Assembly (NCBI RefSeq): GCF_027925245.1
Contig: NZ_BSDP01000001.1
Coordinates: 2,046,001-2,110,000, forward strand
Direction: 5' to 3'
Source of the DNA: Agromyces rhizosphaerae
GTDB lineage: Bacteria; Actinomycetota; Actinomycetes; Actinomycetales; Microbacteriaceae
DNA: 64,000 nt
This document shows, piece after piece, positions 14,676-60,772 of the stretch (position 1 is the stretch's first letter; every line of letters starts with the position of its first letter). Below the pieces are notes generated by a model. The model was not told the DNA's origin, did no database searches, and worked only from the letters and a program-made list of their open reading frames with translations. The translations under genes were made by a program, and so were the position numbers.

Positions 14676-14760
14676 GTAGCGAACACATGCAGATCTGCAC
14701 GTTGGCGGCGAAAGCATGCACTCGTGCGGCGTGTCGCGCGGCGTTGCATGTTTTCGCTAC
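14676..14760 (+). repeat. AACATGC element 1 (GTAGC-arm type)
   Basis: Arms GTAGCGAACACATGC and GCATGTTTTCGCTAC bound 85 bases, with an internal AAGCATGCA after GGCGGCG. It lies between the convergent MFS and PPK2 genes. Confidence 0.9.
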
Positions 14761-14850
14761 AGACGCGTGCGCCTGACGGCGGTTCCGGCGCCGCCCGCGG
14801 CATCCGCTCGCCCCGTCCTGCCCCCAGCGCGCCTTCCCGCGGCATCCGCC

Positions 14851-14938
14851 CCTCCCGAAAACATGCAGAAACGCGCGTTCCGCATCGAGAACATGCATCG
14901 CCGCGGCGTGTCGCTCGCGATTGCATGTTTTCGGGAGG
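14851..14938 (+). repeat. AACATGC element 2 (CCTCCC-arm type)
   Basis: CCTCCCGAAAACATGC (14851) and GCATGTTTTCGGGAGG (ending 14938) are perfect inverted repeats. The internal direct copy is GAGAACATGCA. Same orientation as element 1, in the same convergent gap. Confidence 0.92.
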
Positions 14939-15021
14939 GGTCGCCGGGTGCATGGCTCGGCTACGCCGGATCGTGCGGACGTGCGTCAACCAGAGGCGCC
15001 GCCCCGCGGCATCCGCTCGCC

Positions 15022-15837
15022 CTACTTCTTGCCGCGCTCGCGCTGCTCGACCTCGCGCGCGTAGTCGGGCACCGAGTTCGTCCAGGTGCGCGGCGGCCGC
15101 TCGTATCCCGTCGACGGCGGCCGCTCCGGAATCTCGATCTTGCGCCCGGGCACCTGCTCCCACGGCACCTTCTGCAGGATGTGCGCCATCACGTTGATGC
15201 GCGAGCGCCGCTTGTCGTCGCTCTCGATCTCGTACCAGGGCGCCTCGGCGATGTCGGTGTGGAGGAACATGCGGTCCTTCGCGCGCGAGTAGTCCTCCCA
15301 CTTGGTGATCGAGGCGAGGTCGGTGACGCTGAGCTTCCACCGCCGCATCGGGTCGTCGAGCCGCGAGCGGAACCGCTCCTCCTGCACCGTGTCGGACACG
15401 CTGAACCAGTACTTCAGCAGGATGATGCCGTCCTCCACGAGCATCCGCTCGAAGATCGGCGCCTGGTGCAGGAAGCGCTGGTACTCCTCGTTCGTGCAGT
15501 AGCCCATGACGCGCTCGACGCCGGCGCGGTTGTACCAGGACCGGTCCATCAGCACGATCTCGCCGGCCGCCGGCAGGTGCGGCACGTACCGCTGGAAGTA
15601 CCAGCGCGTCTTGTCGCGCTCGCTCGGCGCGGGCAGCGCGACGATGCGCGCCTGCCGCGGGTTGAGGTACTCCGACACGCGCTTGATCGCCGAGCCCTTG
15701 CCGGCCGCGTCGCGCCCCTCGAAGATCACGACGACGCGCGCCCCCGACTGCTGCACCCACTTCTGCATCTCGACGAGCTGCGCCTGCAGGCTCTTGAGCT
15801 CGCGCTTGTACAGCGACTTCGGCATCCGCTTGGTCAT
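15022..15837 (-). CDS. ppk2: polyphosphate kinase 2
   Basis: 271 residues from ATG 15837 with GGGGAGG upstream. Walker A is FEGRDAAGKGSAIKR (about residues 40-54), Walker B/lid region is IVLMDRSWYNRAGVERVMGY, followed by the family block KYWFSVSDTVQEERFRSR. This is the single-domain PPK2 type, which moves phosphate between polyphosphate and nucleoside di- or triphosphates. The class cannot be set by eye. It ends facing the MFS gene and carries a TAGGCT box 24 bases upstream of its start. Confidence 0.93.
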   Translation of the reverse strand: MTKRMPKSLYKRELKSLQAQLVEMQKWVQQSGARVVVIFEGRDAAGKGSAIKRVSEYLNPRQARIVALPAPSERDKTRWYFQRYVPHLPAAGEIVLMDRSWYNRAGVERVMGYCTNEEYQRFLHQAPIFERMLVEDGIILLKYWFSVSDTVQEERFRSRLDDPMRRWKLSVTDLASITKWEDYSRAKDRMFLHTDIAEAPWYEIESDDKRRSRINVMAHILQKVPWEQVPGRKIEIPERPPSTGYERPPRTWTNSVPDYAREVEQRERGKK

Positions 15838-15925
15838 GTCCTGACCTCCCCGTGCCCGAAAGCCTAGGGGGCGGATCCGGCGGGGCGCAGCCCTCCACAG
15901 CCGTGGCGCGGCCGTGGCGCGGCCG

Positions 15926-20029: not shown

Positions 20030-20119
20030 CCCTCCCGAAAACATGCAGATCTGCGCGTTCCGCGTCGAGAACATGCACTCGCGAGGCGTGTCGCACGGAA
20101 CTGCATGTTTTCGGGAGGG
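20030..20119 (+). repeat. AACATGC element 3 (CCCTCCC-arm type)
   Basis: CCCTCCCGAAAACATGC and GCATGTTTTCGGGAGGG are perfect 17-base inverted ends. The inner part has AGATCTG and GAGAACATGCA. It lies between the convergent aminotransferase and PEP synthase genes. Confidence 0.93.
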
Positions 20120-22888: not shown

Positions 22889-22972
22889 ACCCGAAAACAT
22901 GCAGATCTGCGCGTTCCGCCGCGAAAGCATGCAGACACGCCGCGTTTCGCACGCGGTTGCATGTTTCTGGGA
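22889..22972 (+). repeat. AACATGC element 4 (degenerate arms)
   Basis: Left arm ACCCGAAAACATGC and right arm GCATGTTTCTGGGA pair with one bulge or mismatch region. The inner AGATCTGCGCGTTCCGCC, GCGAAAGCATGCAGACACGCC are near-identical to element 5, which follows 50 bases later. Confidence 0.88.
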
Positions 22973-23021
22973 GAAGCGCGGCGCGGGTCCGGCCGCCGCC
23001 GCGATCGTCGTCGCTCGCCGG

Positions 23022-23115
23022 CCCTCTCCCGAAAACATGCAGATCTGCGCGTTCCGCTGCGAAAGCATGCAGACACGCCGCGTTTCGCACGCGATTGCAT
23101 GTTCTCGGGAGAGGG
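23022..23115 (+). repeat. AACATGC element 5 (CCCTCTCCC-arm type)
   Basis: CCCTCTCCCGAAAACATGC and GCATGTTCTCGGGAGAGGG form 19-base ends with one mismatch. The longest arms of the family in this window. Confidence 0.93.
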
Positions 23116-23222: not shown

Positions 23223-24143
23223 CTACGCCAGCAGCGGCTCCAGCCGCGAGGCGGTCTCGCGCAGCACCGCGAGCAGGGGTTCGGGCGAGGCAGCGCGGGC
23301 GGGCGTGGTCGCGAGCGCGATGCCGGCGACGAGCGCGCCCCGGTCGTCGCGGATCGGCACGGCCAGGCACGCGCGCCCGGGCACGATCGGCGACGACATC
23401 GACACGAAGGCAGCGGATGCATCGAGCAGCAGCCCGCCCAGCGCCGAGACGTGGGGGTCGCGCGAGATGCGCACCTCGTCGCTCAGGGCGAAGTCGGGGT
23501 CGGCGTCGACGATCTGCAGGATCCCGCCGTCGTAGCGCACGAGGTGCACGCCCGCGCGCACCCGTCCGCGGAGGTCGTCGACCACCTGGCGCACCGCGCG
23601 CGGCGGCGGCGCGGTCGGCACGAGCGTCGCGAGCTGCGTCACCTTGCTGCCGAGCGCGAACCCCGACAGGTCGGGCAGCCGCACGAGGTACTCCTCCTGC
23701 ACGAGCAGGTTGAGCAGGCGGTACGCGGTCGCCCGCGGCATCCCGAGGCTCGTCGAGACCTGCTGCGCGGTGACGCCGGGCCCGAGCCGCGCGACCTCCT
23801 CGAGCACGTGCAGCGCGTGCTGGATCGCCTTCGGCTGCCGGGCCCGCAGTTCGACCCCGCTCGCGGGCGGTGGCGGGTGAGCGGATGCCTCAGGCGAGCC
23901 GCCTCCTGAAAACTGCCCGCCCGTTCCTGAAAAGTGCCCGTCTCGCGGCGGGTGAGCGGATGCCTCCGGCGAGCCGCCTCCTGAAAACTGCCCGCCGGTT
24001 CCAGAAAAGTGCCCGTCCCGCGGCGGGTGAGCGGATGCCTCCGGCTGCCCGCCTCCTGAATACTGCGCGCCCGTTCCTGAAAAGCGCCCGTCGGCGGGCT
24101 GCGCGAGCCCACGGGCATCCGCTCGCTCGTCAGGGCTCGCCAC
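23223..24143 (-). CDS. IclR-family regulator with a three-copy 25-aa repeat at its N-terminus
   Basis: 306 residues from GTG 24143, the only ATG/GTG that leaves the DNA-binding domain intact. The winged helix (AIQHALHVLEEVARLGPGVT, then STSLGMPRATAYRLLNLLV) starts near residue 107. The effector domain follows (DPHVSALGGLLLDASAAFVS, LAVPIRDDRGALVAGIAL). The first 100 residues are low-complexity, with 25-residue repeats of the type GHFSGTGGQFSGGGSPEASA plus HPPRD. IclR proteins normally start about ten residues before the helix. The start overlaps the permease stop by 14 bases, so translation may be coupled. It probably controls the amine-use genes. Confidence 0.78.
   Translation of the reverse strand: MASPDERADARGLAQPADGRFSGTGAQYSGGGQPEASAHPPRDGHFSGTGGQFSGGGSPEASAHPPRDGHFSGTGGQFSGGGSPEASAHPPPPASGVELRARQPKAIQHALHVLEEVARLGPGVTAQQVSTSLGMPRATAYRLLNLLVQEEYLVRLPDLSGFALGSKVTQLATLVPTAPPPRAVRQVVDDLRGRVRAGVHLVRYDGGILQIVDADPDFALSDEVRISRDPHVSALGGLLLDASAAFVSMSSPIVPGRACLAVPIRDDRGALVAGIALATTPARAASPEPLLAVLRETASRLEPLLA
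23873..24097. repeat. three 75-bp tandem repeats
   Basis: Units start at GCGGGTGA at 23873, 23948 and 24023. Each holds CCTCCTGAAAACTGCCCGC and TTCCTGAAAAGTGCCCGTC and one GGATGCC. The 75-base period keeps the IclR reading frame. The third copy is the most diverged. Confidence 0.9.
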
Positions 24144-27495: not shown

Positions 27496-27583
27496 TCTCC
27501 CGAAAACATGCAGGATCGCCGCATCCGCACCGAACACATGCACCACCGAGGCGTGTCGCCCGCGATTGCATGTGTTCGGGAGG
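27496..27583 (+). repeat. AACATGC element 6
   Basis: Left arm TCTCCCGAAAACATGC, right arm GCATGTGTTCGGGAGG. The inner direct copy is CGAACACATGCA. It lies between permease and amine oxidase genes that both read rightwards. Confidence 0.9.
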
Positions 27584-31243: not shown

Positions 31244-32050
31244 CTAGGCGGTGCCAACGAGTGTGCCGAGCGCGAGGCCCACCGCAACCACGAGCGCAGC
31301 GACCGCAGCCGCCATCACCACCCCGCCCCACGCCATCCGGCGTCGCCGCGCACGCCCAACCTCCCGGCGCAGCCGCTCGAACGCGTCGTGATCCGCCTCC
31401 ACGACCCCGCCGCTCTGTCCCCACGTCGACGGCAGGGCAGCGGATGCCACGAGCCGCCCCACCTCCTCAGGCGCGAGCACCCCGGGCCGCCGCCGCAGCC
31501 ACCGCACCAGCACATCCGCCGGCAGCACGACCACCCGCGGCGGACGCTCGCGCACGGTCAGCCGCCGGGCGCCGACGATCGCGAGCACAGGCGTCGCTTC
31601 CAGGGGCATCCGTGTCGCCGTCGACAGCAGTTTCGCGGTGCGGTTCGCCTCGTGCTCGGCATTGCGCAGGTGGTCGGTGCGCTGCCCGTTGACGAGGATG
31701 CGGCGCGCGCCCACCCACACCGACGCGCCGCGGTGGTGCTTCGTGTTGATCGTGAACACCCCGCCCGGCCCGATCGCGACGTGGTCGAGGTCGCTGCCCG
31801 CAGTGCCGACCGGCACCGAGTGCAGCACGTGCCACCCGTCGCCGAGCCGCTCCAGCCGCCGCGCGACCTCGAGCTCGCCGAGCGCTCCGACGTACCAGGG
31901 CTCCGCCGCCCGCCCGACTGGCGAGACCCCGAAGAACCGCTGCACCGCCGTGTTCGGCGGCACGCTCGCCTGCTCGCGCAGGCATTCGGCGATGACGGAT
32001 GCCGCGGGGCGGCGCTGCGCGAGCTCACCCACATCCACGAGTTCGCTCAC
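31244..32050 (-). CDS. NERD-domain protein with C-terminal membrane helix
   Basis: 268 residues from GTG 32050. The NERD nuclease-related domain spans about residues 50-150: GALGELEVARRLERLGDGWH, then GTAGSDLDHVAIGPGGVFTI and NTKHHRGASVWVG, which supply the E, D and K expected of a restriction-endonuclease-like fold. One membrane segment lies at the C-terminus (AWGGVVMAAAVAALVVAVGL). NERD proteins are predicted DNA-processing or membrane-tethered nucleases; the function is not established. Confidence 0.82.
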   Translation of the reverse strand: MSELVDVGELAQRRPAASVIAECLREQASVPPNTAVQRFFGVSPVGRAAEPWYVGALGELEVARRLERLGDGWHVLHSVPVGTAGSDLDHVAIGPGGVFTINTKHHRGASVWVGARRILVNGQRTDHLRNAEHEANRTAKLLSTATRMPLEATPVLAIVGARRLTVRERPPRVVVLPADVLVRWLRRRPGVLAPEEVGRLVASAALPSTWGQSGGVVEADHDAFERLRREVGRARRRRMAWGGVVMAAAVAALVVAVGLALGTLVGTA

Positions 32051-32247
32051 AGAGGGCTCGCGTCACCGAGCGCGTCATGGTGACGCTGACTCCCACGGCG
32101 CGAGGAAGCGCGCCGGTCGCAGCTGACATTCCGCGGGGCCGTCCGACGTGAGCCGTGGACTCCATGTCGATTCTCAAACTGTTGCCCGGCAGCGTTTCGG
32201 TGCTCGGAAAGAGTCGCCGAGGTTCCTCCAACAGACGCGCAACGATG

Positions 32248-33522
32248 TCACGTGTCGGGCGACACATCAGCATTCACCGACTGGGGCGGATCGAGCCAGT
32301 AGTCGATCGCGACGTTCAGCTCTCGCCGGACATCCACCAGAGAAAGGTCGGTCCTCAGAGTGGTGAGCTGACCAGACTCGCCACGTGACAAGTGCCCCGT
32401 GTCCCGCCGATCGGCGGGGAAGATAAGTACTCCGTTGAACCCACTGGCATCGAAAGCATTACGGAAATTCTCCGCATAGCCGAGCATCTTGTACTGCTCC
32501 TCACTAGGAGTGCGGTCCCCCGTTTGATAGCGCCACTTTGCATCGATAAGCATGGGGGACAAGTCTCCCGACGTGAGCGTCAGGTCGGGAATCCCTCGAA
32601 GCCTCTTGCCCGTGTCGTGGGCCCACTCCCCTTGCCCAAGAGGAAGCTGCGTCTGAAAGTAAACGGCCACTTCCCGATCGCTGCGGCGAACTGTCGCGAC
32701 CGGTCGGGGCGATCCTCGGGTGTTCAGACTCCAGTCCGTTGGACCAACCCAACCAGCGTGTGTCAGCGTTTCCCGAACCATCTGAAGGGACCACACCTCG
32801 AACACCTTCTCCCAGTAGGTGTTGCTGGCCGGCAGCATCAAGTCGACCAAGGTGCTCGTGTCACTTGTTAGGCCCGGTGATAGTGCTACCCATTCATCGA
32901 ACCATCTGAGGATTCCTTGGTAGGCCACGTCGTTGGCGGTCAGTCGCCGCGCTACGCGATACCGCGTACTGCTGATGTCCCTCGCTCGAACGCCTGCCAC
33001 ATTCACATCCCGAAACGCAGCGTACCCAGACAAGCGTTCTAGCTTCGCGCTATGCGTTCCGCTTAGTGCGGCCTCCGCGGTCGAACGCGGAAATGGATGC
33101 GCGCGCAGTACGCGACAGACCGAGCGAATCAGGCCAAGCGTGAGGCGATTCTCGGGTGTGTCGTGCACTACTCGACTGACCAGGACCGGGAAAGATCGAC
33201 GCGTGTTGCCCTCGAGCCTCCTTCTCGTATACAGCGGAACATGCAATGCGCCGACCAGTTCGCGCTCCTCACGAACCTCACGTCTTCTGGTTCGCGAGGG
33301 CAGCTTGGCCACCGCCTCCACGGCGCTGATCAGCGCGGGTGTCGCCGCTAGAAGACGTCGAAACGTGAACTCGACGTGGTAAGCGCGGAGCCCATCAACC
33401 GTCTCGACGCGATGCGCCGGCGCAGACATCGCACCCAGTTCAACGGACTGGTCAGATGGCTTAGTCGCCAGTAGGGGCAAACACTGCTCCAGGACGGTCG
33501 CCTTGAGCTGCTCGAGGCTCAT
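32248..33522 (-). CDS. McrC-like nuclease subunit
   Basis: 424 residues, start at 33522 overlapping the McrB-like gene by four bases. The C-terminal region shows a PD-(D/E)xK site: RGIPDLTLTSGDLSPMLIDA followed by KWRYQ, the layout of McrC and DUF2357-type nucleases that work with AAA partners. The N-terminal half (LLAATPALISAVEAVAKLP, PVLVSRVVHDTPENRLTLGL) is family-like. It would cut DNA when driven by the ATPase encoded upstream. Base composition is lower in GC than in the flanking core genes. Confidence 0.75.
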   Translation of the reverse strand: MSLEQLKATVLEQCLPLLATKPSDQSVELGAMSAPAHRVETVDGLRAYHVEFTFRRLLAATPALISAVEAVAKLPSRTRRREVREERELVGALHVPLYTRRRLEGNTRRSFPVLVSRVVHDTPENRLTLGLIRSVCRVLRAHPFPRSTAEAALSGTHSAKLERLSGYAAFRDVNVAGVRARDISSTRYRVARRLTANDVAYQGILRWFDEWVALSPGLTSDTSTLVDLMLPASNTYWEKVFEVWSLQMVRETLTHAGWVGPTDWSLNTRGSPRPVATVRRSDREVAVYFQTQLPLGQGEWAHDTGKRLRGIPDLTLTSGDLSPMLIDAKWRYQTGDRTPSEEQYKMLGYAENFRNAFDASGFNGVLIFPADRRDTGHLSRGESGQLTTLRTDLSLVDVRRELNVAIDYWLDPPQSVNADVSPDT

Positions 33523-34682
33523 GCGATGTACGACAGGCCCGCTGTCTCAACTCTTCGGAGCTCGCGTGCGAAGAGCGGGAACGCAGAACTCACCTCTGTA
33601 GCAAAGACAGCCAATTTCTCTGGTTGTTCGAAGTCAGTCTCGAACAGGGGGGCGATCTTCACTGAGGCCGCCCAGTCGAGACTTGCGTGCCACGAACTGC
33701 TGGGATTGTTTGATCGGTAGATCGCGGCGAGCCTACATGCCTCCAGGATCGGGGCAGTACCCACCGGCACGTAGGGGAACTTGCTCTCGGTGTTGGCGTA
33801 CCGGGCCTTGGCCAACTCGCCAAATAGCTTCCCGAGGGCGTCGTCCAGAGCGGCGACATCCTCTCCCTCGGGTTTGACCAAGGATCGCGCTGCAAGATAC
33901 TCCCGCGATGCAAGCGAGTCTCCGTGCCGCCAGGTCTCGGTTTCCGCGAGCGGTGGAGGTACGTCAAGGGTAATGAAGGTGAACCGGCGCCGGATGCCCA
34001 TGCTTAGCGAGTTAACGAACTGCTTGTCTACCGAGTTCATTGTTGCGAGGATGCGAAAGCGCGCGGGCACGGTGAGCAGAGGGCTAGCCGGCTCGTACCT
34101 GAGCGGCATGGAACCATTGTCGATGCCGCCGCCTCCCAGCACAGTGAATAGCTCTCCGAATGCACGGTCTGGCTCGCAGCGATTCAACTCGTCCAAGATC
34201 AGCCAACGAGCCTGATGCGGGTTCACCTGCTCGTCATCGAGATTCCGCGCGACGAATCCGGCGCAATCGATTGCCGCACGAGTGAAATGACCGTGCCGGG
34301 GCACCAGCCTCTCTGCGCCACTCGCATCGACAACGAGCTCATGCCCGCCGACTGTGTCATACGTGGTCCAGTCCTCGCGCGCGGTCGCAACCGTCGCCTG
34401 AGCGCCGAATGCGGTCGCCAATGCACTAGCAAGCGATGTCTTCCCAGTTCCCGGGGGGCCTTGGAGGACGAGGTTTCCGGCAATGATCGCCGCCACGCAC
34501 TGCATGAGGGTGGCATCCGATACGACCAGGTCCTGGGCGGCAGCCCTAATGCGCTCCACGATGTCTGAGGGAGTTTCGATGGGGTAAGGCGCGACTTCGG
34601 CTGTACGATCGATCGCGGACCAGAACTCGTCTGGAGGAATCGTACCTTGGCTAACGAGTCCCGCGTCGCTAAGGTCAGGCAT
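33519..34682 (-). CDS. McrB-like AAA NTPase
   Basis: 387 residues from ATG 34682; a GTG one codon earlier is also possible. Walker A is LQGPPGTGKTSLASALA, Walker B ARWLILDELNRCEPDRAFGE, and the sensor/McrB signature region is ILATMNSVDKQFVNSLSMGI followed by RRRF. McrB proteins hydrolyse GTP and translocate DNA for McrC. The short N-terminus has no recognisable DNA-reading domain, so another subunit should supply specificity. It overlaps both neighbours. Confidence 0.82.
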   Translation of the reverse strand: MPDLSDAGLVSQGTIPPDEFWSAIDRTAEVAPYPIETPSDIVERIRAAAQDLVVSDATLMQCVAAIIAGNLVLQGPPGTGKTSLASALATAFGAQATVATAREDWTTYDTVGGHELVVDASGAERLVPRHGHFTRAAIDCAGFVARNLDDEQVNPHQARWLILDELNRCEPDRAFGELFTVLGGGGIDNGSMPLRYEPASPLLTVPARFRILATMNSVDKQFVNSLSMGIRRRFTFITLDVPPPLAETETWRHGDSLASREYLAARSLVKPEGEDVAALDDALGKLFGELAKARYANTESKFPYVPVGTAPILEACRLAAIYRSNNPSSSWHASLDWAASVKIAPLFETDFEQPEKLAVFATEVSSAFPLFARELRRVETAGLSYIA

Positions 34683-40638: not shown

Positions 40639-40645
40639 CCGAGGG

Positions 40646-40858: not shown

Positions 40859-40940
40859 CCCGGAAGCATGCAGATTCGACCGTTCCTCCGCGAAAGCATG
40901 CAGACACGCCGCCGTTCCGGCGGCGTTGCATGTTTCCAGG
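40859..40940 (+). repeat. AACATGC element 7 (diverged)
   Basis: CCCGGAAGCATGC and GCATGTTTCCAGG are imperfect arms; the middle keeps GCGAAAGCATGCAGACACGCC. It lies in the 351-base divergent gap between the ScoMcrA-like gene and the Phd/VapC pair, which otherwise holds the two promoters and an unpaired GGATGCC/GGCATCC set. Confidence 0.85.
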
Positions 40941-40962
40941 CGCTCGGCGGGCCCGAGCGCAT

Positions 40963-40983: not shown

Positions 40984-40989
40984 CGCGCC

Positions 40990-41235
40990 ATGCGGACGAT
41001 CAGCCAGCGTGAACTGCGCAACGACTCGGGCGCGATCATGCGCGCGCTCGCCGCAGGGGAATCGTTCCAGGTGACGAGTCGCGGTGAGCCGGTCGGCGTG
41101 CTCACTCCGGCGGATCGCACGCCGCTCGACGAACTCACGCTGCATCGGGCAGGCGGTCCGATGCGGTTCCCGGTCGGAGTGACGCGCGACGAGTCGGCGC
41201 TCGAGGCGCTCATCGCACTCCGCGGCGACCGATGA
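40990..41235 (+). CDS. Phd/YefM-family antitoxin
   Basis: 81 residues from ATG 40990. The start MRTISQRELRNDSGAIMRAL, then FQVTSRGEPVGVLTPAD, is the typical Phd DNA-binding fold; the C-terminal part would wrap the toxin. It overlaps the PIN gene by four bases and has its own operator-like repeats. It neutralises the toxin and represses the operon. Confidence 0.9.
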   Translation: MRTISQRELRNDSGAIMRALAAGESFQVTSRGEPVGVLTPADRTPLDELTLHRAGGPMRFPVGVTRDESALEALIALRGDR

Positions 41236-41630
41236 TCGTCGCGGTCGACACGTCCGCGCTCGCGAAGCTGCTCGTCGAGGAGGCGGAGTCGGCGACGCTC
41301 CGTGAGCACCTCGCCCAGCGTGATGCCGCTGGCGACACGATCGCCATCTCGACGATCGCCGTGACCGAGCTGCGCCGGCTCGCGATCCGGCTCGACATCG
41401 AACCAGACCACGTCGAGCCCGTGCTCCGCCCGTTCCGTGTCATCCGGCTGACCGAGGGCATCCTGCAGCTCGCCGGCCGGCTGGCGCACCGCCACCTCGG
41501 CACCCTCGACGCGATCCACATCGCCACCGCGCTCTCGATCGAAGCGCAGGCGCTCATCACGTTCGACACCCGCCAGACGGATGCCGCGCGGCTCGAGGGG
41601 CTCGCAGTCGAGGCGCCCGGCGTGGCCTGA
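41232..41630 (+). CDS. vapC: PIN-domain toxin, VapC family
   Basis: 132 residues from ATG 41232. Acidic residues of the PIN fold are in place: IVAVDTSALAKLLVEE, AVTELRRLAIR, HLGTLDAIHIATAL and LITFDTRQTDAARLEGL. VapC toxins cut tRNA or rRNA with Mg2+ when freed from the antitoxin. Normal length. Confidence 0.92.
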   Translation: MIVAVDTSALAKLLVEEAESATLREHLAQRDAAGDTIAISTIAVTELRRLAIRLDIEPDHVEPVLRPFRVIRLTEGILQLAGRLAHRHLGTLDAIHIATALSIEAQALITFDTRQTDAARLEGLAVEAPGVA

Positions 41631-41648
41631 CCTGTTCGCAGGCGGTTC

Positions 41649-41737
41649 GCGTAGCGAGAACATGCAGATCTGACACTTGGCGGCGAGAACATGCAGACTC
41701 GCCGCGGTCCCGCCGGCGTTGCATGTTCTCGCTACGC
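41649..41737 (+). repeat. AACATGC element 8 (GCGTAGC-arm type)
   Basis: GCGTAGCGAGAACATGC (41649-41665) and GCATGTTCTCGCTACGC (41721-41737) are perfect 17-base inverted ends. It lies between VapC and the next rightward gene. Confidence 0.94.
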
Positions 41738-51360: not shown

Positions 51361-51448
51361 CCTCCCGAAAACATGCAGATCTGTCAGATCCGCCGCGAGA
51401 ACATGCAGACACGCCGCGGTTGCGCCGACGTTGCATGTTTTCGGGCGG
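51361..51448 (+). repeat. AACATGC element 9
   Basis: Left arm CCTCCCGAAAACATGC, right arm GCATGTTTTCGGGCGG (one mismatch). Middle AGATCTG, GCGAGAACATGCAGACACGCC. In the gap between the convergent MFS and DUF1876 genes. Confidence 0.92.
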
Positions 51449-51482: not shown

Positions 51483-51569
51483 TGTAGCGAAAACATGCAG
51501 ATCTGACCGATGGCGGCGAAAACATGCAGACACGCCGCGGTTCCGCCCGCGTTGCATGTGTTCGCTACA
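51483..51569 (+). repeat. AACATGC element 10 (TGTAGC-arm type)
   Basis: TGTAGCGAAAACATGC and GCATGTGTTCGCTACA, one mismatch. It is 35 bases from element 9 yet has different outer arms; the inner part is nearly the same. Confidence 0.93.
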
Positions 51570-51611
51570 GCGACCGCCGAGAACCGGCGGTACGTACGCG
51601 GACGCCGCGCG

Positions 51612-51881: not shown

Positions 51882-52252
51882 GGAACTCACCACCTTCCTG
51901 TGGTTCCGTCTCCAGCGTAGCCACGGGGCCGCACCCCGGCCAGAGTCCGATGCACCGGAATGGGGGCCAGCACTGACGCGGGCCGACCAGCACGGTGGAA
52001 ACGTGAGCCATGCGGTGCCGGTGCCGTTCGCGCGGTGCCGAGACCGCGCCCGCGCCGGCGGGGAATCCGGCCGAGTCAGGCCCGACAGCCCGGCACGCTG
52101 CCGAGTCGGATACACCGACACCACGAGCACCACCAGGCACGACCACGACCACGACCTCGCCCGACGCACGACGCCGTGACGCACGACACCGCAGGGCAGC
52201 GAAGCCCGGCGGCACGAGCGCAGCTTCGGCCGGGGCCACGGGGGAGCGCACC
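51882..52252. other. 371-bp gap upstream of the giant-protein operon
   Basis: No convincing gene. The segment 52120-52150 has ACCACGACCACGACC-type short repeats. Promoters for the DUF1876 gene and the giant-protein operon should lie here; none could be placed with confidence. Confidence 0.4.
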
Positions 52253-55200
52253 ATGCCGCCCATCGATCCGGACCTCGTCGCGGCGTTCGGCCGCATCTTC
52301 CGCCCCGCTACCGCGATGACGGTGCGCGTGGACTTCCTCGAACGGCTCGGCGCGATCTTCGGCGGCCGACCGCCCGGCCAGAGCCTGCCGTCGGTGCGCC
52401 TGTTCCGCCCGCGCGACCTCATCGACGTCGAGTTCCGCTTCGTCAACCTCGAGCTGCGCGGCACCGGCACGCGCCGCGTCGTCGCACGCGAGATCGCCGG
52501 CCGCCCCGCCCAGCTCATCGCGATCTTCGGCCCGCAGCACCTGCTCGAGCAGGCGTTCTTCGACGCGGCCGGGCCGGAGGGCGACTTCGTCTCGCAGAAC
52601 GCGGAGACCGGCGGCACCCCACCAGCCGGCGGCTCAGAGATGCCGAAGTACCCGGTGCAGGCGATCCTCTCCCGCCCGAGCCGCCTCGCCTTCCGCGTCA
52701 CCGAGGAGGAGATCCCGTTCACCGAGACCGGCCTGCTCGCCGCAATGCGCCTGCTGCCGCTGAGCGTCGCCCCGCACGCGGTCTCGTTCACCCCGTTCCG
52801 CCGCTTCCCCGACCTCGTCACCGACGTCGGCGCGGTGCTCGAGGCCACGACGCGCGCCTCGAGCTTCCTCGAGGAGGCGGCGCGTCGCGCGGTGCTGCGC
52901 GAGCGCCTCGCGGCCCGGCCCGACGCCGCGGCATCCGTCGAGCTCGCGAACCTGGAGCTGGCTCCGGATGCCTCGGCCAGCGCCCTTGCGACCGCCGCGG
53001 CCGCCGCCCGCCTGCACCGGACCGTCGGCCTCATCGAGGCGCGCTTCGGCCCGGCGAGCGCGGTCGGCGCCGTGGCCTCCGGCGCGGGCGCGATCATCGA
53101 CCTCTCGCCCGCGCTGGCGCTCGACCTGCGCCCGTCCGTGCCGCGCGAACCGACCTCGACCGAGACCGCGATCGAGCTGCCGTGGCGCCTCCAGCTGAGC
53201 CCGCACGCCACGGGCGGGTTCATGCACTCGATCGACGACGTCACCCACGACGGCCGCGTCGAGCTGTGGCACACCCGGCTCGGCACGCGCGACGCCGAGG
53301 CCGGGCAGGTGTTCCCGATCGCCGCTGCCACGACCTCGCCCGTCGACGAGGAGGACCCCGACACCCGCCAGGTGCGGGCCATCTGGACCCGCGACTTCAG
53401 GCCGGGCAAGAGCGCCGCCGACGAGGTGAACGCGTTCCCCCAGGAGGACTTCGGCGACCTCGGCACGCTGCCGCCGTTCCGCGCGAGCCTCTCCGTGAAG
53501 GACCGGATGCAGCTCGTGCACCGCACCTCCAACCACCGCTGGTCGGGCGAGGGCAACCACGTGCGGCCGGCGCAGGTCGAGCACCTCATGCTGACCGGGC
53601 TGGGCGGATGGCTCGCCAGCGAGGCCGACTTCGGCGACGAGGCGCCGGGCCTGAACCTGCAGGAGTGGCGGCACCGCGCGACGATGGCGCGGGACCACTA
53701 CGTGAAGGTCGTCTACGCGGGCATTCTCGCCCCGTTCGGCCATCGCGCATCGCTCGTGAAGATCACCGAGCGCAGGGTCGCGGGCGATGGTCGGGCCACC
53801 CTCTACCAGCGGCTGTTCATCATCGTGCGCCAGCCCGAGCGGGCGTACCTGCACACGGGCGTCGCCGACTTCGACAACGTCATGCCGTTCCGATGGGTGC
53901 GCATCATCACGAGATCCACGCCGCCGCTCGCGCTGCCGCACTCGCTGATCACCACCTCGGGCCAGGTGTTCGTGCCCGAGATCGCGACCGCCGACGTCGG
54001 GCAGGGCGGTGCGGCGCCCTCGGGCAGCACGCCCTTCGTCTTCAAGTTCCTCGCGAACGACGTCGACAACCACCTGGTGGAGTTCGAGGGACCGCTCGTC
54101 TTCCTCGAGACGACCGCCGTCGATTCGAAGGCGGACGACCCCGTCGGTGCGGTGGACGCGGCGAACTCCGTCGCGCACGCGTACGGCATGGGCGGGCAGC
54201 TCGTCGCGTACGCCGAGCCCGACGAGGACAACGACCCGGGCGACACCGCGCTGCCCACCACGACGCTCACGTTCGACGCCACCGTGCACGGCGGCAAGCC
54301 GAACTACGTCGTGCCGCACCTGCGCGTCGCGATGGCCCCGGTGCCCGCGATGGCCGCGTTCACCGGGCAGTCCGGGCCTGTGCCGCTGCGCATCGCCGAC
54401 GCCTACCGCGGCAGCCGCTTCGCGGCGGGAAACGCGGGCGGGCTGTTCCTCGAGCTCGCCGACGCGGCCGGCGCGCCGCTGCCGACCGCGCCGCCGACCA
54501 TGGACTTCGGCTCGCAGTCCGACAGGTCGGGCGCGTTCCTCAGCCCGTCGATCGGCGTGAAGGCGCTCGCCCGCAAGGTCGGCCCGGTCGGCGGCGACCT
54601 CGCCACGCTCGCGGCGAACCCGGCGAACTTCGACCTGGGAGCGATGTTCCCGGCGAGCGCGGCGAAGCTGTTCGGCGTCATCAACCTGCAGGACCTCCTG
54701 CCCGCAGCGAACGGCGTGCTGCCGAAGTTCGTCACCCAGGTGCTCGACGCCGCCGCGACCGCGCAGCAGACGGTCGCCCGCGCCCAGGCGTTCGTCACCG
54801 CGAAGGCGGCCGAGCTCGCGGCGCTCGGCGCGAACGTGCAGAACGCCGCCACGGCACTCGCGACGAAGGCGCAGGCGTTCACCGACGCGATCGGCCAGCT
54901 CGCGGCGGACCCGGATGCCGCGCCGAACCTCGACCAGGTGATCGCCGACATCGGCGCAGCCGCCGGCACGATCGCCACGGCGCTCGACGACGCCGGCCCG
55001 AACCTCCCGCTGGCCAGGCCCGAGGTCGAGCAGGCGGCATCCGTCATGCATCTCCTCGCCGACGTCGCGGGCACCGCCGGCACCGTCGTGACCGCGCTCC
55101 GCAACCTCTACAAGGGCCTCGCCGTGCCCGAACAGGTGTCGGCGCGGCTGGAGTGGTCGACCGAGCTCGGCCAGTGGCCGGCGAACGCGGCGAAGCCGAT

Positions 55201-56188
55201 CTTCGAGCCCAAGGACGATCGGATGCTCCGCCTCGTCGCCGAGGTGCAGGCACCGCTCGATGCGTCGAAGTCGCCCGGCGCGCTCGTCTCGTGTTCGCTC
55301 CCGCCGTTCGACCTGCGGCTGGTGGGGGACGCCGAGTTCATCATCATCCGCGTCGCGGTCATGGCGTTCTCGGTGCGGGGCGGGAAGAAGCCCGACGTCG
55401 ACGTGCAGCTCGACGATAAGAAGGGCATCGAGTTCGTCGGACCGCTCGCCTTCATCGAGGCGATCAAGAAGGTCATCCCGTTCGACGGGTTCAGCGACCC
55501 GCCGTACCTCGACGTGTCGACGAGCGGCATCACCGCGGGCTTCGACCTCGCCATCCCCGACCTCGCCGTGGGCGTGTTCGCGCTGACCAACATCAACGTC
55601 GGCGCCCGGCTCTCGGTGCCGTTCATCGGCGAGTCGCTCGAGTTCCGGTTCAACTTCGCCACCCGCGACGACCCGTTCCGGCTGCAGGTGTCGCTGTTCG
55701 CGGGCGGCGGGTTCTTCGCGCTCACGGTCGCGCCCGACGGCATGCGCGTGGTCGAGGCGGCGCTCGAGTTCGGCGCCGCGGTGTCGATGAACTTCGGCGT
55801 CGCGTCGGGGAGCATCTCGGTGATGGCGGGCATCTACTTCCGCCTCGAGCAGCAGGGCGACGACCAGCTCGTGCAGCTCTCCGGGTACTTCCGGGCCCGC
55901 GGCGAGGTCGACGTGCTCGGCCTCATCTCGGCGTGCATCGAGCTCTACCTCGAACTCAGCTACCGCAACCAGAACGGCAACGAGAAGGCCGTCGGCAAGG
56001 CGTCGATCAGCATCGAGGTGTCGGTCTGCTTCGTGTCGTTCTCGGTGTCGGTGAGCTGCGAGAAGCAGTTCGCCGGGTCGAAGGGCGACCCGACGTTCGT
56101 CGACATGATGGGCCCGTTCCAGGCGCTCGGCGTGCCGAAGGATCCATGGGCCGACTACTGCGCGGCGTTCGCGCCCGAGGCCCCGTAG
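52253..56188 (+). CDS. giant protein of unknown function, first of pair (1311 aa)
   Basis: 1311 residues from ATG 52253, set by GGGGGAG just upstream. No signal peptide and no convincing membrane helix. Residues 1-800 are mixed with many short strands (SVRLFRPRDLIDVEFRFVNL, RQVRAIWTRDFRPGKSAADE, NNHLVEF-like segments). About 830-935 is an Ala/Gln-rich helix, probably coiled coil (AATAQQTVARAQAFVTAKAA). Residues 1040-1311 are strand-rich with alternating hydrophobics (FRLQVSLFAGGGFFALTVAP, FGVASGSISVMAGIYFRLEQ), ending in VSVCFVSFSVSVSCEKQFAG. Codon use matches the host. It forms an operon with the next gene, whose ribosome site overlaps its stop. No function is assigned. Confidence 0.8.
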   Translation: MPPIDPDLVAAFGRIFRPATAMTVRVDFLERLGAIFGGRPPGQSLPSVRLFRPRDLIDVEFRFVNLELRGTGTRRVVAREIAGRPAQLIAIFGPQHLLEQAFFDAAGPEGDFVSQNAETGGTPPAGGSEMPKYPVQAILSRPSRLAFRVTEEEIPFTETGLLAAMRLLPLSVAPHAVSFTPFRRFPDLVTDVGAVLEATTRASSFLEEAARRAVLRERLAARPDAAASVELANLELAPDASASALATAAAAARLHRTVGLIEARFGPASAVGAVASGAGAIIDLSPALALDLRPSVPREPTSTETAIELPWRLQLSPHATGGFMHSIDDVTHDGRVELWHTRLGTRDAEAGQVFPIAAATTSPVDEEDPDTRQVRAIWTRDFRPGKSAADEVNAFPQEDFGDLGTLPPFRASLSVKDRMQLVHRTSNHRWSGEGNHVRPAQVEHLMLTGLGGWLASEADFGDEAPGLNLQEWRHRATMARDHYVKVVYAGILAPFGHRASLVKITERRVAGDGRATLYQRLFIIVRQPERAYLHTGVADFDNVMPFRWVRIITRSTPPLALPHSLITTSGQVFVPEIATADVGQGGAAPSGSTPFVFKFLANDVDNHLVEFEGPLVFLETTAVDSKADDPVGAVDAANSVAHAYGMGGQLVAYAEPDEDNDPGDTALPTTTLTFDATVHGGKPNYVVPHLRVAMAPVPAMAAFTGQSGPVPLRIADAYRGSRFAAGNAGGLFLELADAAGAPLPTAPPTMDFGSQSDRSGAFLSPSIGVKALARKVGPVGGDLATLAANPANFDLGAMFPASAAKLFGVINLQDLLPAANGVLPKFVTQVLDAAATAQQTVARAQAFVTAKAAELAALGANVQNAATALATKAQAFTDAIGQLAADPDAAPNLDQVIADIGAAAGTIATALDDAGPNLPLARPEVEQAASVMHLLADVAGTAGTVVTALRNLYKGLAVPEQVSARLEWSTELGQWPANAAKPIFEPKDDRMLRLVAEVQAPLDASKSPGALVSCSLPPFDLRLVGDAEFIIIRVAVMAFSVRGGKKPDVDVQLDDKKGIEFVGPLAFIEAIKKVIPFDGFSDPPYLDVSTSGITAGFDLAIPDLAVGVFALTNINVGARLSVPFIGESLEFRFNFATRDDPFRLQVSLFAGGGFFALTVAPDGMRVVEAALEFGAAVSMNFGVASGSISVMAGIYFRLEQQGDDQLVQLSGYFRARGEVDVLGLISACIELYLELSYRNQNGNEKAVGKASISIEVSVCFVSFSVSVSCEKQFAGSKGDPTFVDMMGPFQALGVPKDPWADYCAAFAPEAP

Positions 56189-56197
56189 GAGGACGTG

Positions 56198-59100
56198 ATG
56201 AACGAGAACGCGATCTTCACCGCGATCCCCGCGGGGCGCATCGACGGGGAGCGGCTCCTCGTGACGATCTTCGTCACGCCCAAGCTCTCGACCGGCGCGG
56301 GCCCGGGCGTGCTGCTGCCGCTCACCGACTTCCCGGCGTTCGCCGACTGGCCGAGCACGGTACGCGAGGCCGTCTGGCAGCTCGAGGTCTCCGGGGTCGG
56401 CACGGTCGAGGGGTTCCCGCTCGACACCCCCGTCGAGCCCGACTCGAACGCGTGGGCGGAGGTGCTCGGCGGGACCAGCGTGGGCGAGGCGGAGTTCCAG
56501 CACTTCGAGCAGGCGACGGTGCACTCGTACCCGGTCGGGCAGGTGGCATCCGGCATCACGACGCTCTTCACGGACGTCGTCACGATGCACTCCGCCGAGC
56601 ACCCGACCATCGCCGGCCTGCGCGGCATCCTGCACGAGTTCGACCCGCAGGAGCGCCTCGGCGGGCTCGAACGCGAGCTCGGCCGTCGCGGCGCGATCAA
56701 GCAGATGCTCTCCGATCTGCGCGGCCAGCAGGGCGGACCGGGCGCACCGGCGCGTGCCGTCGACTTCGAGGCGCTGAAGGGCGCAGCGGATGCCCCTGCC
56801 GTGGCGCTCGCCGCAGCCACCGCGTTCTACGACCGCACCGACGACCCGTGGAGCGAGCAGGCCATCACCGCCGACATGCCGAAGCCCGTGCCGCCCGAGT
56901 TCCACTCGTTCGTGTCGCGCTGCGCCGACTATCCGGAACTCCTGCGGCACCTCGGGCTGGCGCTCGACGTGTGGATCAAGGACGACCAGGCGATCACCGC
57001 GCACGGCGACATCCAGGTGGTCGACGCGGGCGGCGTCTCGCCGCTCGACCAGCTCGTGCACCCGCCGGCAGCACGGCCGAAGACCTTCTTCCACCGCACC
57101 GACGACGTCTGGGCGCCCGCGTCGCGCACCGAGAACCAGGACATCATCGACGGCAGCCTCGCGATCGACCTCGACGACCGCTTCGACCTCGAGCAGGTCG
57201 ACCCCGACGGCGCCGCGATGAAGGTGTCCGAACTGCTGCGCACCCTGCAGCGGCAGGACGAGGCGCGGAAGGCGCCCGCCGAGCGCTCGATGACGCCCGA
57301 CGACGCGACCCTGCCGGCGCTGCGGTCGACCGGCGTGGTGTTCGCGCGTCGCAACCGCGCTGCCGAGCTGGTCGGGCAGTTCGATCGGTCGGCCGCGCAC
57401 GAGCAGGCGCGCACCTCGGGCGACCCGGCGGACCTCGACGTCGCCGACGTCACCCGCGGCTGGCGCATCGACGTGCAGGACCTCGACGGCGGTGCGAAGG
57501 AGTGGTTCTCGCTGCACGAGCGGCGCGGCGAGTACCGGCTCGTGCAGCCGGCCCCGGGGGAGAACCAGCCCGTGCCGCCGCCCGTCGCGCTGTCGGTGCA
57601 GCCCGAGCCCGACGAGGGCTACCTGAAGGGCGCGACGACCTCGAGCGACGACCCCGACCCGGCCGCCGACCAGTACCTGCACGAGACGCTCGCCGGGTGG
57701 GACGGCTGGTCGCTCGCGGTGAAGCGGCCCGGGCGGCCGCAGCGTGAGGTCGACTCCGTCCCCGAGGACGCGGACCGCGAGGTGAAGGACTCGGGCTTCC
57801 CGCTCGCCGCCGAGTTCGGGGTCGTCCAGGGCTCGCTGCCGCGCCTCCGGTTCGGCCGGCACTACCGCTTCCGCATCCGCGCGGTCGACCTCGCGGGCGG
57901 GTCGATCCCCGACGAGCAGCTCGACCAGGCGCACGAGCGCGAGCTGCCCGGCACGTACCAGCGCTGGGAGCCCGTGCCCTCGCCCGCGGTGGTGCCGCTC
58001 ACGCAGTTCACCGAAGGCGAGTCGCTCATGCGGATGGTGATCCGCTCGACGCGTGACGTGCCCGTCGCGACGTACGTCGGGCTGCCGCGCGTGGAGGGCC
58101 TGGCCGGGCACGAGCCGAGTGGCCGCGAGGGCATTGTCTACCGCATCGAGAACGAACGGCACCTCGCGCCGCCGCTCGGCAGCATGCAGCTCGCCGAGAC
58201 GCACGGCGAGTTCGACGCCGCGCTCGACGGCGGGGCGGCCGACGTCGCGGCGCAGTTCGCCATCGCAGCCAAGGAGTCGGGCAACTACCTGACGCTCGCG
58301 GGTGCCGCGGTCGTGAACCACCTCGGTGCGCCGCCCACGGTGCTCACCGGCGAGCGAGGCCAGGTGCTCGCCGAGGGCGAGTACGTCGTGCACGACACGC
58401 CCGCGCTCGACCTGCCGTACCTGCCCGACCCGCTCTCGCGCGGGCTCTCGCTCACCACGCTGCCGGGCGAGCCGGGCGGCAGCACGAGGACCGAGCCCTG
58501 GCCGACCGGCGGCCCCGGCTGGCACGAGCGCCTGCCCATCCGCATCCGCATCGAGGAGGGCACCGGCGCCGCGCAGTTCGACGCCGCGAAGCGCCTGCTC
58601 ACGGTGCGCCTGCCGAAGGCCACCCTCGCGGTCGTGCGCCTCGCCTCGGTGCTCGAGAAGGAGGACCTGCGACTGCTGCGCGTCTGGAACCTGCTCGACG
58701 AGTCGCTGGCGCCGGCGCCCGACTCGCGCGTGATCGAGGCGGTCGAGGGTCGCAACTGGATGCTCACGCCCTGGTCGGAGCTCACCGTCGTGCACGCGGT
58801 CGAGAAGCCGCTCGAGGACCCGTCGATCGTGCTCGACGGCCGGCCGCTGCGGGCGCTCGCCGAGACCTTCTCGCGGCTGCCGGGCGCCGTGCACAACCAC
58901 GCGGCCAGCACCGGGCGCATCGACATCGACGCGACCTGGGTCGACCCCGTCGACGACGTGATGCAGGACAAGTGGGTCGAGCACGACAAGGGCGCGCACG
59001 TGGGCGACTTCGAGCTCGAGGCATCCGAGCAGCAGGCCCGCATCGATCGGGATGCCGCCCCGGCGACCACGACCGTCGGTCCGACCCACCTCGTGCGGCA

Positions 59101-60562
59101 CGAGTTCGGCGACACGAAGCACCGCTGGGTCGACTACCGCGCGACCGCGACCACGCGGTTCCGCGAGTACTTCCCGCCCGAGATCACGGGCGACCCGGCA
59201 CTGGTGACCGCGACCGGGCCGGTGCTCGCGCAGGTCGACGTGCCGTCGAGCGCGCGGCCCGACGCGCCGCTCGTGAAGTACATCGTGCCGACGTGGGAGT
59301 GGCACGAGGAGCACCTCGGCGTGCGCGGGGCGTCCATGGCGGTGCGGCGTGTGCGCACGGGCGGCGGGCTGCGCGTCTACCTCGGGCGGCCGTGGTTCTC
59401 GAGCGGGCCCGACGAGCTGCTCGGCGTCGTGCTGCGCACGCAGCCGTGGGTCACCTGGCGCGACGACCTGGTGCGAGAGATCGTCGGCAGTGAGCTGCTG
59501 CACACCGTCGCCGACGAGTGGGCGGGTCGTGCGCTGCGCGCCGAGGGGGAGCGACCGGTGGGGCCGCAGTCGGCGTCGGCGTCGCTCGTCGCGCACGCCG
59601 CCGCGCGGGGCCGCCGGGAGTTCGTCGACCCGGTGGCCGGGCTTCGGATCCGCACGCGCGAGGAGCGGTTCCTCGCCGACGCGGCGCGCGAGGTGGCGTC
59701 GCGACGGGCGGCCGACCCGCGGTTCGTCGCCACCGGCGTCGCCGACGCGACCGCTGCGCTGATCGAGGACCACTTCGGGCTCTTCGCCGGCACCGGCCCC
59801 GAGGGGCGGCGCTTCACCACCGCCTGGGGCGCCGACCCGGTCTTCACGGGCGGCCCGATGGGCTCGGGTCCGTTCATCCACCAGTTCGCGCTGCGCACCG
59901 CGGTCGGCAGCGTGCGGCTCGCCGAGGTGAACGACCACGTCACGGTCGTCGGCCACCAGCCCGAGTACGACGAGGGCCGCGGCCTCTGGTACTGCGACCT
60001 GCAGGTCGATGCGGGCGACGCCTACACGCCGTTCGTCCAGCTCGCGCTCGCGCGGTACCAGCAGCATTCGGTGCCGAGCGTCGAGCTCTCGACCGTCGTG
60101 AAGGCCGACTTCGTGCAGCTCGTGCCGCGCCGCGAGTCGACCTACGTCGTCACCGCGAAGCGCGACGCGGTCGCGGTGACCCTCGCGGGGCCGCTCGGCA
60201 TCCCGCAGCACGCGGCGACGCTGCCGAACCCGGAGACGCGTGTCGCGGCCTCCCGCCGCGTCGAGGCGTGGATCGAGCGCCTCCCAGCGGGCGCGACCGG
60301 AGACCTCGACTGGGAGCTCGTCGGCGACACCTTCGGACTCGACGTGGTGCTCACGCTCGCACAGGCGCGCGGCGCGTCGCTCGGCAACGTGCAGTGGGCG
60401 GGCGTGGTGCCGCTGCCCGACACGCAGCCCGGCGATCGACTGCGCGTGCGCCTGGCCGAGTACGAGGTGCACCGTGGCGACCCGCTCGGCCTCCCGCTGT
60501 TCGCGTCGGGCAAGGTGCGCGACCTCCGCCTCGTCTACGCCGACGAGCTTCCGCTGACGTAG
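56198..60562 (+). CDS. giant protein of unknown function, second of pair (1454 aa)
   Basis: 1454 residues from ATG 56198; AGGAGG overlaps the stop of the first gene. No signal peptide or membrane helix. A fibronectin-like strand (FGRHYRFRIRAVDLAGGSIP) is near residue 550. The last 200 residues contain a run of Trp/Tyr/Phe-rich segments (GLWYCDLQVDAGDAYTPFVQ, LALARYQQHSVPSVELSTVV, KADFVQLVPRR) that reads like a conserved C-terminal domain. No catalytic motif was found. A large scaffold, binding or toxin-like protein are all possible. A hairpin sits directly after its stop. Confidence 0.8.
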   Translation: MNENAIFTAIPAGRIDGERLLVTIFVTPKLSTGAGPGVLLPLTDFPAFADWPSTVREAVWQLEVSGVGTVEGFPLDTPVEPDSNAWAEVLGGTSVGEAEFQHFEQATVHSYPVGQVASGITTLFTDVVTMHSAEHPTIAGLRGILHEFDPQERLGGLERELGRRGAIKQMLSDLRGQQGGPGAPARAVDFEALKGAADAPAVALAAATAFYDRTDDPWSEQAITADMPKPVPPEFHSFVSRCADYPELLRHLGLALDVWIKDDQAITAHGDIQVVDAGGVSPLDQLVHPPAARPKTFFHRTDDVWAPASRTENQDIIDGSLAIDLDDRFDLEQVDPDGAAMKVSELLRTLQRQDEARKAPAERSMTPDDATLPALRSTGVVFARRNRAAELVGQFDRSAAHEQARTSGDPADLDVADVTRGWRIDVQDLDGGAKEWFSLHERRGEYRLVQPAPGENQPVPPPVALSVQPEPDEGYLKGATTSSDDPDPAADQYLHETLAGWDGWSLAVKRPGRPQREVDSVPEDADREVKDSGFPLAAEFGVVQGSLPRLRFGRHYRFRIRAVDLAGGSIPDEQLDQAHERELPGTYQRWEPVPSPAVVPLTQFTEGESLMRMVIRSTRDVPVATYVGLPRVEGLAGHEPSGREGIVYRIENERHLAPPLGSMQLAETHGEFDAALDGGAADVAAQFAIAAKESGNYLTLAGAAVVNHLGAPPTVLTGERGQVLAEGEYVVHDTPALDLPYLPDPLSRGLSLTTLPGEPGGSTRTEPWPTGGPGWHERLPIRIRIEEGTGAAQFDAAKRLLTVRLPKATLAVVRLASVLEKEDLRLLRVWNLLDESLAPAPDSRVIEAVEGRNWMLTPWSELTVVHAVEKPLEDPSIVLDGRPLRALAETFSRLPGAVHNHAASTGRIDIDATWVDPVDDVMQDKWVEHDKGAHVGDFELEASEQQARIDRDAAPATTTVGPTHLVRHEFGDTKHRWVDYRATATTRFREYFPPEITGDPALVTATGPVLAQVDVPSSARPDAPLVKYIVPTWEWHEEHLGVRGASMAVRRVRTGGGLRVYLGRPWFSSGPDELLGVVLRTQPWVTWRDDLVREIVGSELLHTVADEWAGRALRAEGERPVGPQSASASLVAHAAARGRREFVDPVAGLRIRTREERFLADAAREVASRRAADPRFVATGVADATAALIEDHFGLFAGTGPEGRRFTTAWGADPVFTGGPMGSGPFIHQFALRTAVGSVRLAEVNDHVTVVGHQPEYDEGRGLWYCDLQVDAGDAYTPFVQLALARYQQHSVPSVELSTVVKADFVQLVPRRESTYVVTAKRDAVAVTLAGPLGIPQHAATLPNPETRVAASRRVEAWIERLPAGATGDLDWELVGDTFGLDVVLTLAQARGASLGNVQWAGVVPLPDTQPGDRLRVRLAEYEVHRGDPLGLPLFASGKVRDLRLVYADELPLT

Positions 60563-60563
60563 G

Positions 60564-60585
60564 GCGGATGCCCGGGGGCATCCGC
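60564..60585 (+). terminator. hairpin after the giant-protein operon
   Basis: GCGGATGCCC (60564-60573) and GGGCATCCGC (60576-60585) with a two-base spacer, starting two bases after the stop. Confidence 0.6.
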
Positions 60586-60686
60586 TCGCCCTGCCCGCGG
60601 CCGCCCGCCCTCGCGCCGCCCGCCTTCGCGCCGCGCGCCTCGCCCGCCCTCACGCTGGCCTGCGCGTCCGCCCGCCCGTCCTCCCT

Positions 60687-60772
60687 CCCGAGAACATGCA
60701 GCTCTGACCGATCCGCCGCGAAAGCATGCAGACACGCCGCGTTCTCGGCGCGATTGCATGTTCTCGCGCGCG
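60687..60772 (+). repeat. AACATGC element 11
   Basis: Left arm CCCGAGAACATGC, right arm GCATGTTCTCG followed by CGCGCGGG, so the outer stem is broken by an insert. Middle GCGAAAGCATGCAGACACGCC. Between convergent genes. Confidence 0.88.

Follow-up and report, generated by a model that had tools for sequence, protein, structure and literature searches.

The 64,000-nt stretch of the Agromyces rhizosphaerae genome analysed here (the window; positions 2,046,001-2,110,000 of a single contig of 3,607,789 bases) carries eleven elements of ~85 bp, each built from three related boxes and every one on the + strand. We found that these elements and their relatives in other Microbacteriaceae are paired with a gene for a predicted AbiEi-like/Vsr-like nuclease, and this pairing is well supported by elements flanking the gene across genera, by the co-occurrence of the two, by the cognate resemblance between the flanks of the gene and the repeats of the same genome, and by paralogous nucleases with repeats of their own. 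The eleven elements are probably non-autonomous palindromic DNA repeats that spread in a manner similar to repetitive extragenic palindromes (REP) and their REP-associated tyrosine transposases (RAYT), with the nuclease as the putative driver of that spread.

Within the window, AACATGCA occurs 25 times compared to 0.43 expected, a count that none of 100 shuffles equalled. The preliminary description had placed eleven elements with a fixed internal plan here, and a covariance model trained on these copies (R1), the check it had suggested, returned all eleven at E <= 1.4e-22, with the next match at E 0.34 and with weak matches to the same eleven on the - strand owing to their palindromy. Their alignment needs few gaps and shows the same plan throughout: box A is followed by a direct box B at 29-30 bp and by an inverted box C ~32 bp further on, measured between the starts of B and C, all within complementary outer arms that are either CTCCCG/CGGGAG or GTAGCG/CGCTAC. 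This box plan recurs in other Agromyces and in other Microbacteriaceae genera, where the boxes are lineage-specific, and no known insertion sequence or named repeat family was found that accounts for the copies.

The partner gene was recognised in A. cavernae (genome G013), where inverted elements at 2948 (+) and 3981 (-) of locus L074 enclose an open reading frame (ORF) of 285 residues that a simple gene caller had missed. Homologues of this ORF detected by tblastn adjoin elements in A. rhizosphaerae itself (G000), in genomes G056 and G122, and in Leifsonia; the A. rhizosphaerae gene lies at 2,254,784-2,255,626, ~145 kb outside the window, and an element at 2,254,563 adjoins it. The predicted protein joins an AbiEi-like winged-helix N-terminal part to a Vsr-like (PD-(D/E)XK) endonuclease C-terminal domain, in which the acidic and histidine residues of this fold are conserved and the nuclease residues are invariant. 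NCBIfam and PADLOC returned only weak matches, to AbiEi and to the nuclease portions of large defence proteins, and members of the family carry the database names DUF559, 'endonuclease domain', 'very-short-patch-repair endonuclease' and 'AbiEi antitoxin'. A close clade (>= 50% identity) is present in 6 of 60 Agromyces (G000, G005, G013, G038, G056 and G058), and beyond it the next near-full-length matches reach at most 36%. In G044, a 51-residue nuclease fragment (69% identity) adjoins a box, while a 63% homologue of A. salentinus (P0013) is listed by NCBI on contigs of <=1,637 bases and was not found in assembly G039.

Co-occurrence of elements and nuclease was apparent at two scales. Among the 60 Agromyces, R1 matched in 14 genomes at E <= 0.001 and a 20-bp box pattern (<=2 mismatches; one match for the reversed control pattern) in 12, two sets that overlap without being identical; all six close-clade genomes are among the 14 (p = 6e-5). 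A second model (R2), trained on 28 relatives, identified elements at E <= 1e-6 under strict filters in 15 genomes from 8 of 85 genera among 299 Microbacteriaceae. The nuclease was found in 18 of 299 genomes, apparently the identical draw, at E < 1e-50 (40-57% identity), a cut-off chosen after a gap in the match list was seen, and 12 of the 15 element-bearing genomes carry it compared to 18/299 overall (p = 9e-15, uncorrected). R2 elements occur without the nuclease in G160, G326 and G328. For genomes with repeats and no nuclease, loss is the simplest guess, and R1 matches are fewer in G015 and G030 than in A. rhizosphaerae and G056. The nuclease occurs without R2 matches at E <= 1e-6 in G108, G177, G231, G279 and G320, of one genus, and in G332, and palindromes of other sequence can be seen by eye in the flanks of several of these genes.

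At the level of individual loci, an R2 match (E <= 0.001) lies <=300 bp from the gene at 16 of 23 clade loci (6 Agromyces and 17 others), on both sides at 11, compared to 3 of 36 paralog loci (L207, L216 and L241); L194 and L225 include R2 training sequences. R2 matches near the gene at all six Agromyces close-clade loci, though only weakly in G038 (E 4e-4). We then compared the two flanks of each gene with one another at 55 of 59 nuclease loci, excluding L200, L202, L206 and L209, which contig ends cut; some further flank boundaries may be off by a few bases. Inverted similarity between 5' and 3' flanks (score >= 40) was found at 24/55 nuclease loci and 3/209 control genes (p = 2.5e-14), and direct similarity at 21/55 and 3/209 (p = 5e-11). 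Flank palindromes with arms >= 14 bp and <=1 mismatch occurred at 38/55 nuclease loci compared to 23/90 control genes, and those with arms >= 16 bp at 21/55 compared to 15/90. When 320-bp flanks of the nuclease gene from 17 genomes were scored against 36 hand-chosen dispersed elements not adjoining the gene, the mean score was 50.9 within and 27.6 between genomes, and none of 5000 permutations reached the observed sum; the 17 genomes, which include six Agromyces and five members of genus g58, are not independent.

Several paralogous nucleases (~30-36% identity) are flanked, by eye, by different palindromes. A second repeat family, CATGAGAWTC-28..46-GAWTCTCATG, is present in 12 of 60 Agromyces (G012, G018, G029, G032, G046, G052 and six others), with 58 exact copies in total and up to 15 per genome, and its reversed control has none. 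Among the matches listed, at least 13 of the 58 copies, in at least 8 of the 12 genomes, lie <=300 bp from a nuclease match, and copies stand on both sides of the nuclease in G018, G032 and G052 (where the match is in two pieces). Outside the family, a palindrome precedes an AbiEi-named gene of Tsukamurella tyrosinosolvens, and four more partial copies (75-78% identity) occur in other records of the same strain; by the PLSDB gene table, three of them sit in convergent gaps and one at the 3' end of a gene. No 5' palindrome was present at Tsukamurella locus L253. The flank repeat of Actinomyces oris appears at four places of one record, query included. Similar flank repeats stand beside AbiEi/DUF559-type genes at L254-L259. 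These loci come from Tsukamurella and Actinomyces records that are labelled as plasmids and may be chromosome pieces, since one Tsukamurella record carries rpsO. Within the window itself, two 54-bp copies containing CTCCTGAAAA lie at 23872-24000, 96% identical and 75 bp apart; a paralogous nuclease at 388-389 kb likewise has a TTTTCAGGAG palindrome in its flank, and a further repeat family is possible at 23872-24000.

None of the eleven window elements overlaps a gene called by codon usage, and they lie in convergent (6), tandem (4) and divergent (1) gaps, the convergent call for 51361 and 51483 depending on one small ORF not present in the simpler caller. With the earliest starts of that simpler caller, ORFs at 27566 and 39958-40962 extend into elements, such that the initial impression of no element in a likely gene holds for the codon-usage caller and gives way for these two ORFs. 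Across genomes, 101 copies placed with the codon-usage caller comprise 38 convergent, 42 tandem and 14 divergent, with 2 in genes and 5 unassigned, compared to 25 convergent, 81 tandem and 55 divergent among 161 reference gaps >=100 bp from the A. rhizosphaerae region and relatives. Convergent gaps are thus enriched (38/94 vs. 25/161, Fisher p = 1.8e-5) and the divergent share is 14/94 vs. 55/161 (p = 7.6e-4 in the second Fisher test of this comparison), both p-values being optimistic because orthologous copies were counted. The A. rhizosphaerae element at 2,031,110 is cleanly absent from G030 and G015, with no duplication visible, while other elements are shared with relatives or have a remnant-like stretch there. 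In eight orthologous pairs, element cores are 83% identical (563/681) compared to 61% (651/1061) for the 60-bp flanks, against baselines of 54% for unrelated 60-mers and a 76% average over all own-vs-relative copy pairs. Clean absence together with shared copies more conserved than their flanks indicates that copies have been both gained and kept. Plasmid and phage collections gave only weak partial matches to the elements. In viral contigs a first pattern had no match and a later one matched 8 stretches, of which the two examined were chance-like; in a genome-contig collection the first pattern found nothing and the second 60 stretches, those examined being 24 Agromyces, Leifsonia or Humibacter matches and 5 chance-like others.

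The conservation of element cores would also fit a reading in which the repeats are chiefly binding sites that serve the cell in regulation or in organising the chromosome; the protein would then be an AbiEi-like DNA-binding regulator, or a nuclease exploiting pre-existing sites, and would not copy them. The AbiEi-like N-terminal fold and the maintenance of the nuclease gene at one locus are in line with such a role, which we nevertheless consider unlikely, given that the elements sit mostly at 3' ends and not at promoters, as the deficit in divergent gaps indicates, that the nuclease residues are invariant, and that presence is patchy with lineage-specific copies.

Variation within the boxes was used to distinguish a palindrome acting as DNA from one acting as RNA. 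Among the 43 elements of G000, G015, G030 and G056, the core CATGCA is found in 42 A boxes, 42 B boxes and 39 C boxes, whereas A. cavernae has AACAGGAA, Leifsonia and Humibacter have an AACAGGC-type core, and certain copies in G184, G236 and G323 have an AACAGC-type one (G184 also has an AACAGG copy); in these lineage changes the boxes of one element are mostly altered together. A fourth box, which makes a nested plan with two boxes direct and two inverted, was seen by eye in Humibacter, in genus g26 and in at least one A. cavernae copy, and not in the two Leifsonia copies examined. In the 43 own-clade elements, the mismatches between boxes A and C number 20 of G·U type, 20 of A·C type and 44 of other types; for B and C the corresponding numbers are 50, 51 and 57. 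A palindrome working as RNA from one strand would favour G·U, and the lack of such a bias suggests that it is probably to be read as DNA. Covariation between A and C is strong in the outer four bases (0/5000 shuffles) and weak in the inner triplet, where 66 (A-C), 41 (B-C) and 434 (A-B) of 5000 shuffles matched it.

Bidirectional terminators or 3' mRNA hairpins, with the box plan needing no trans-acting partner, would fit the enrichment in convergent gaps and the succession of A-tract, stem and T-tract, and, with DNA parameters, no more than 1 of 200 shuffles folded as well as the native sequence in 4 of 5 strands tested. That explanation is improbable in view of the equal numbers of G·U and A·C, of the same lineage-specific core in boxes A and B although B need not pair, and of the nuclease pairing, which it leaves unexplained.

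Descent from an ordinary, now lost transposon as miniature inverted-repeat transposable elements (MITEs), with an incidental nuclease association, would account for palindromic ends, an empty orthologous site and patchy copy number. In five genomes, grouped exact box matches are nearly all three-box elements, and no larger unit bounded by boxes or bearing a transposase was noticed with the box pattern (intervening genes being unannotated there), and boxes as the ends of a larger transposon are not favoured; two box groups in G013 enclose the nuclease instead. Since nuclease flanks also match the genome's own repeats, we regard a MITE origin as very improbable. A structured RNA family is scarcely credible: the two types of complementary outer arms would suit it, whereas Rfam gave no match in the window at gathering scores and mismatches show no strand-specific wobble pattern. 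Of the candidates raised at the outset, a REP/BIME-like unit or a protein-binding site thus pointed in the right direction, while an RNA hairpin is not favoured.

Several observations weigh against nuclease-driven spread of the repeats. No target-site duplication was seen at the sole clean empty site, the other sites being too diverged. The nuclease gene itself hardly moves: a lysS-like and/or cls-like neighbour is kept at 14 of 23 clade loci, and these two, a class II tRNA synthetase and a protein with PLD domains, are the ones identified among ten gene families common to >=3 clades in flank clustering. In the cognate comparison the own genome ranked first in only 11 of 17 cases, with ranks of 2 for G056 and G323, 3 for G184, 5 for G038, 6 for G236 and 16 for G123. 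Eight of 14 element-bearing Agromyces are without a close-clade match, 7 of 23 clade loci have no R2 match at E <= 0.001 (L230, L234, L235, L236, L238, L239 and L240), and 3 of 18 family nuclease matches contain an in-frame stop. A. rhizosphaerae has two further paralogs; a palindrome follows the 3' end of one, and no clear palindrome was seen at the other. The genomic clustering and same-strand run described below are also left without explanation.

If the nuclease does spread the repeats, its winged-helix part would recognise the boxes, and the nuclease would nick or cut at the element, which might be in the form of an extruded hairpin. Repair may then copy the element into new sites, mostly at gene 3' ends, as has been proposed for REP/RAYT with an unrelated enzyme; this location could reflect insertion being least harmful there. 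Some copies are old, vertically inherited and more similar than their flanks; others erode. A broader proposition, for and against which we see the balance as even, is a novel kind of two-component selfish DNA in Actinomycetota, in which a vertically kept AbiEi-wHTH (winged helix-turn-helix)/Vsr-like endonuclease spreads its own palindromic site by cutting and repair, a form of intron-free homing with nuclease lineages co-evolving with their repeats.

The logic resembles that of REP/RAYT, and novelty rests on an enzyme unrelated to RAYT. REPs unite short, intergenic, multicopy palindromes with an enzyme gene, RAYT/TnpA-REP, flanked by the repeat (REPtrons; PMC3733652 and PMC6006769, as far as the portions considered here go), and the Agromyces elements and their nuclease gene share each of these properties. 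The RAYT-type domain PF01797 (Y1, HUH) had no match at E <= 0.001 in 60 Agromyces compared to 5 of 14 control genomes, and RAYT was rejected as the partner; the enzyme here is Vsr-like, and the repeat unit spans ~85 bp and contains three or four boxes. The unpaired GTAG/CGTC-type tetranucleotide at the foot of REP hairpins has no counterpart, GTAG occurring in one arm type only and paired there with CTAC. The homing endonuclease I-Bth0305I (3r3p), of the EDxHD class and labelled a mobile intron protein in the PDB, has a Vsr-like catalytic fold like that of the nuclease C-terminal domain, but the nuclease gene sits between two inverted copies of a dispersed repeat, and no intron or intein was noticed there, no search having been aimed at either. 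Compared to AbiEi antitoxins (6y8q), the AbiEi-like part is fused to a nuclease. MITEs, ERIC, BOX and similar interspersed repeats are short, non-coding, intergenic and patchy, as are the Agromyces elements, which differ in having a non-transposase as candidate cognate enzyme and lineage-specific boxes matched to the local nuclease. attC sites were dropped on what we take to be their consensus. The Vsr-REase domain of MTES_1575 (PF18741), described as a novel Vsr REase fold, lies within a large multidomain protein, and repeats are absent from the excerpted description (PMC3710099). Among the open-access papers listed, we found no title or abstract start on repeats paired with DUF559/Vsr-like genes. 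CGTC repeats are remarked, in an excerpt of PMC3733652, to be without a dedicated transposase, a remark on which the present pairing bears.

The whole A. rhizosphaerae genome holds 20 elements by R1 (the 21st match has E 0.57), far from the many hundreds at first extrapolated from the window. Fourteen of the 20, including the eleven of the window (Table 1), lie within 2,031,110-2,106,777 (76 kb), while 20,000 random placements put a maximum of 6 of 20 in a stretch of such length. The longest same-strand run, 12 elements from 2060669, was reached in 472 of 20,000 strand shuffles, in which close element pairs are not independent. The cluster at 2.03-2.11 Mb was rejected as an origin or terminus marker, because a DnaA domain match lies at 1.590 Mb and a dif-like site, called with what is presumably its consensus, at 3.3905 Mb.

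Table 1 Elements in the window, with coordinates counted from its first nucleotide
Element	Position	Strand	Remarks
1	14676..14760	+	GTAGCG-arm type; boxes A, B, C
2	14851..14938	+	CTCCCG-arm type; orthologous copies in G056, G015
3	20030..20118	+	Orthologous copy in G056
4	22889..22974	+	Pair partner of element 5
5	23022..23115	+	Pair partner of element 4
6	27496..27582	+	G056 site is a remnant-like stretch only
7	40859..40945	+	Orthologous copy in G015
8	41649..41735	+	GTAGCG-arm type
9	51361..51446	+	Orthologous copy in G056, absent in G015
10	51483..51570	+	GTAGCG-arm type
11	60687..60772	+	Orthologous copy in G030

Other features of the window were also recorded. The same-orientation elements at 40859-41735 enclose a PIN-domain gene and a small ORF, a toxin-antitoxin-like pair; G015 has one element at this site, and the aligned stretch suggests that the ORF/PIN pair is missing. 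The 9-mer GCGGATGCC occurs 48 times compared to 2.2 expected (e.g. at 14644, 20170, 20199, 60564 and 60577), partly in close inverted pairs, and may be a terminator-like hairpin or another repeat family. A low-GC island at 32000-40000 (58-64% vs. ~70-74% around it) carries genes for an AAA protein, a sub-threshold McrBC match and two N6/N4 DNA methylase matches, and looks restriction-type. Two adjacent very large ORFs (~1300-1455 residues) at 52010-60562 had no Pfam match at E <= 0.001.

To our knowledge, REP/RAYT is the main bacterial case in which palindromes scattered through a genome have an enzyme dedicated to them. If true, another solution, Vsr-like and of independent origin, would mean that such partnerships arose more than once. 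It would also point to a role for a family known so far only by names such as DUF559, endonuclease domain or AbiEi antitoxin, and would provide natural pairs of nuclease and site whose specificity may be read from genomes.

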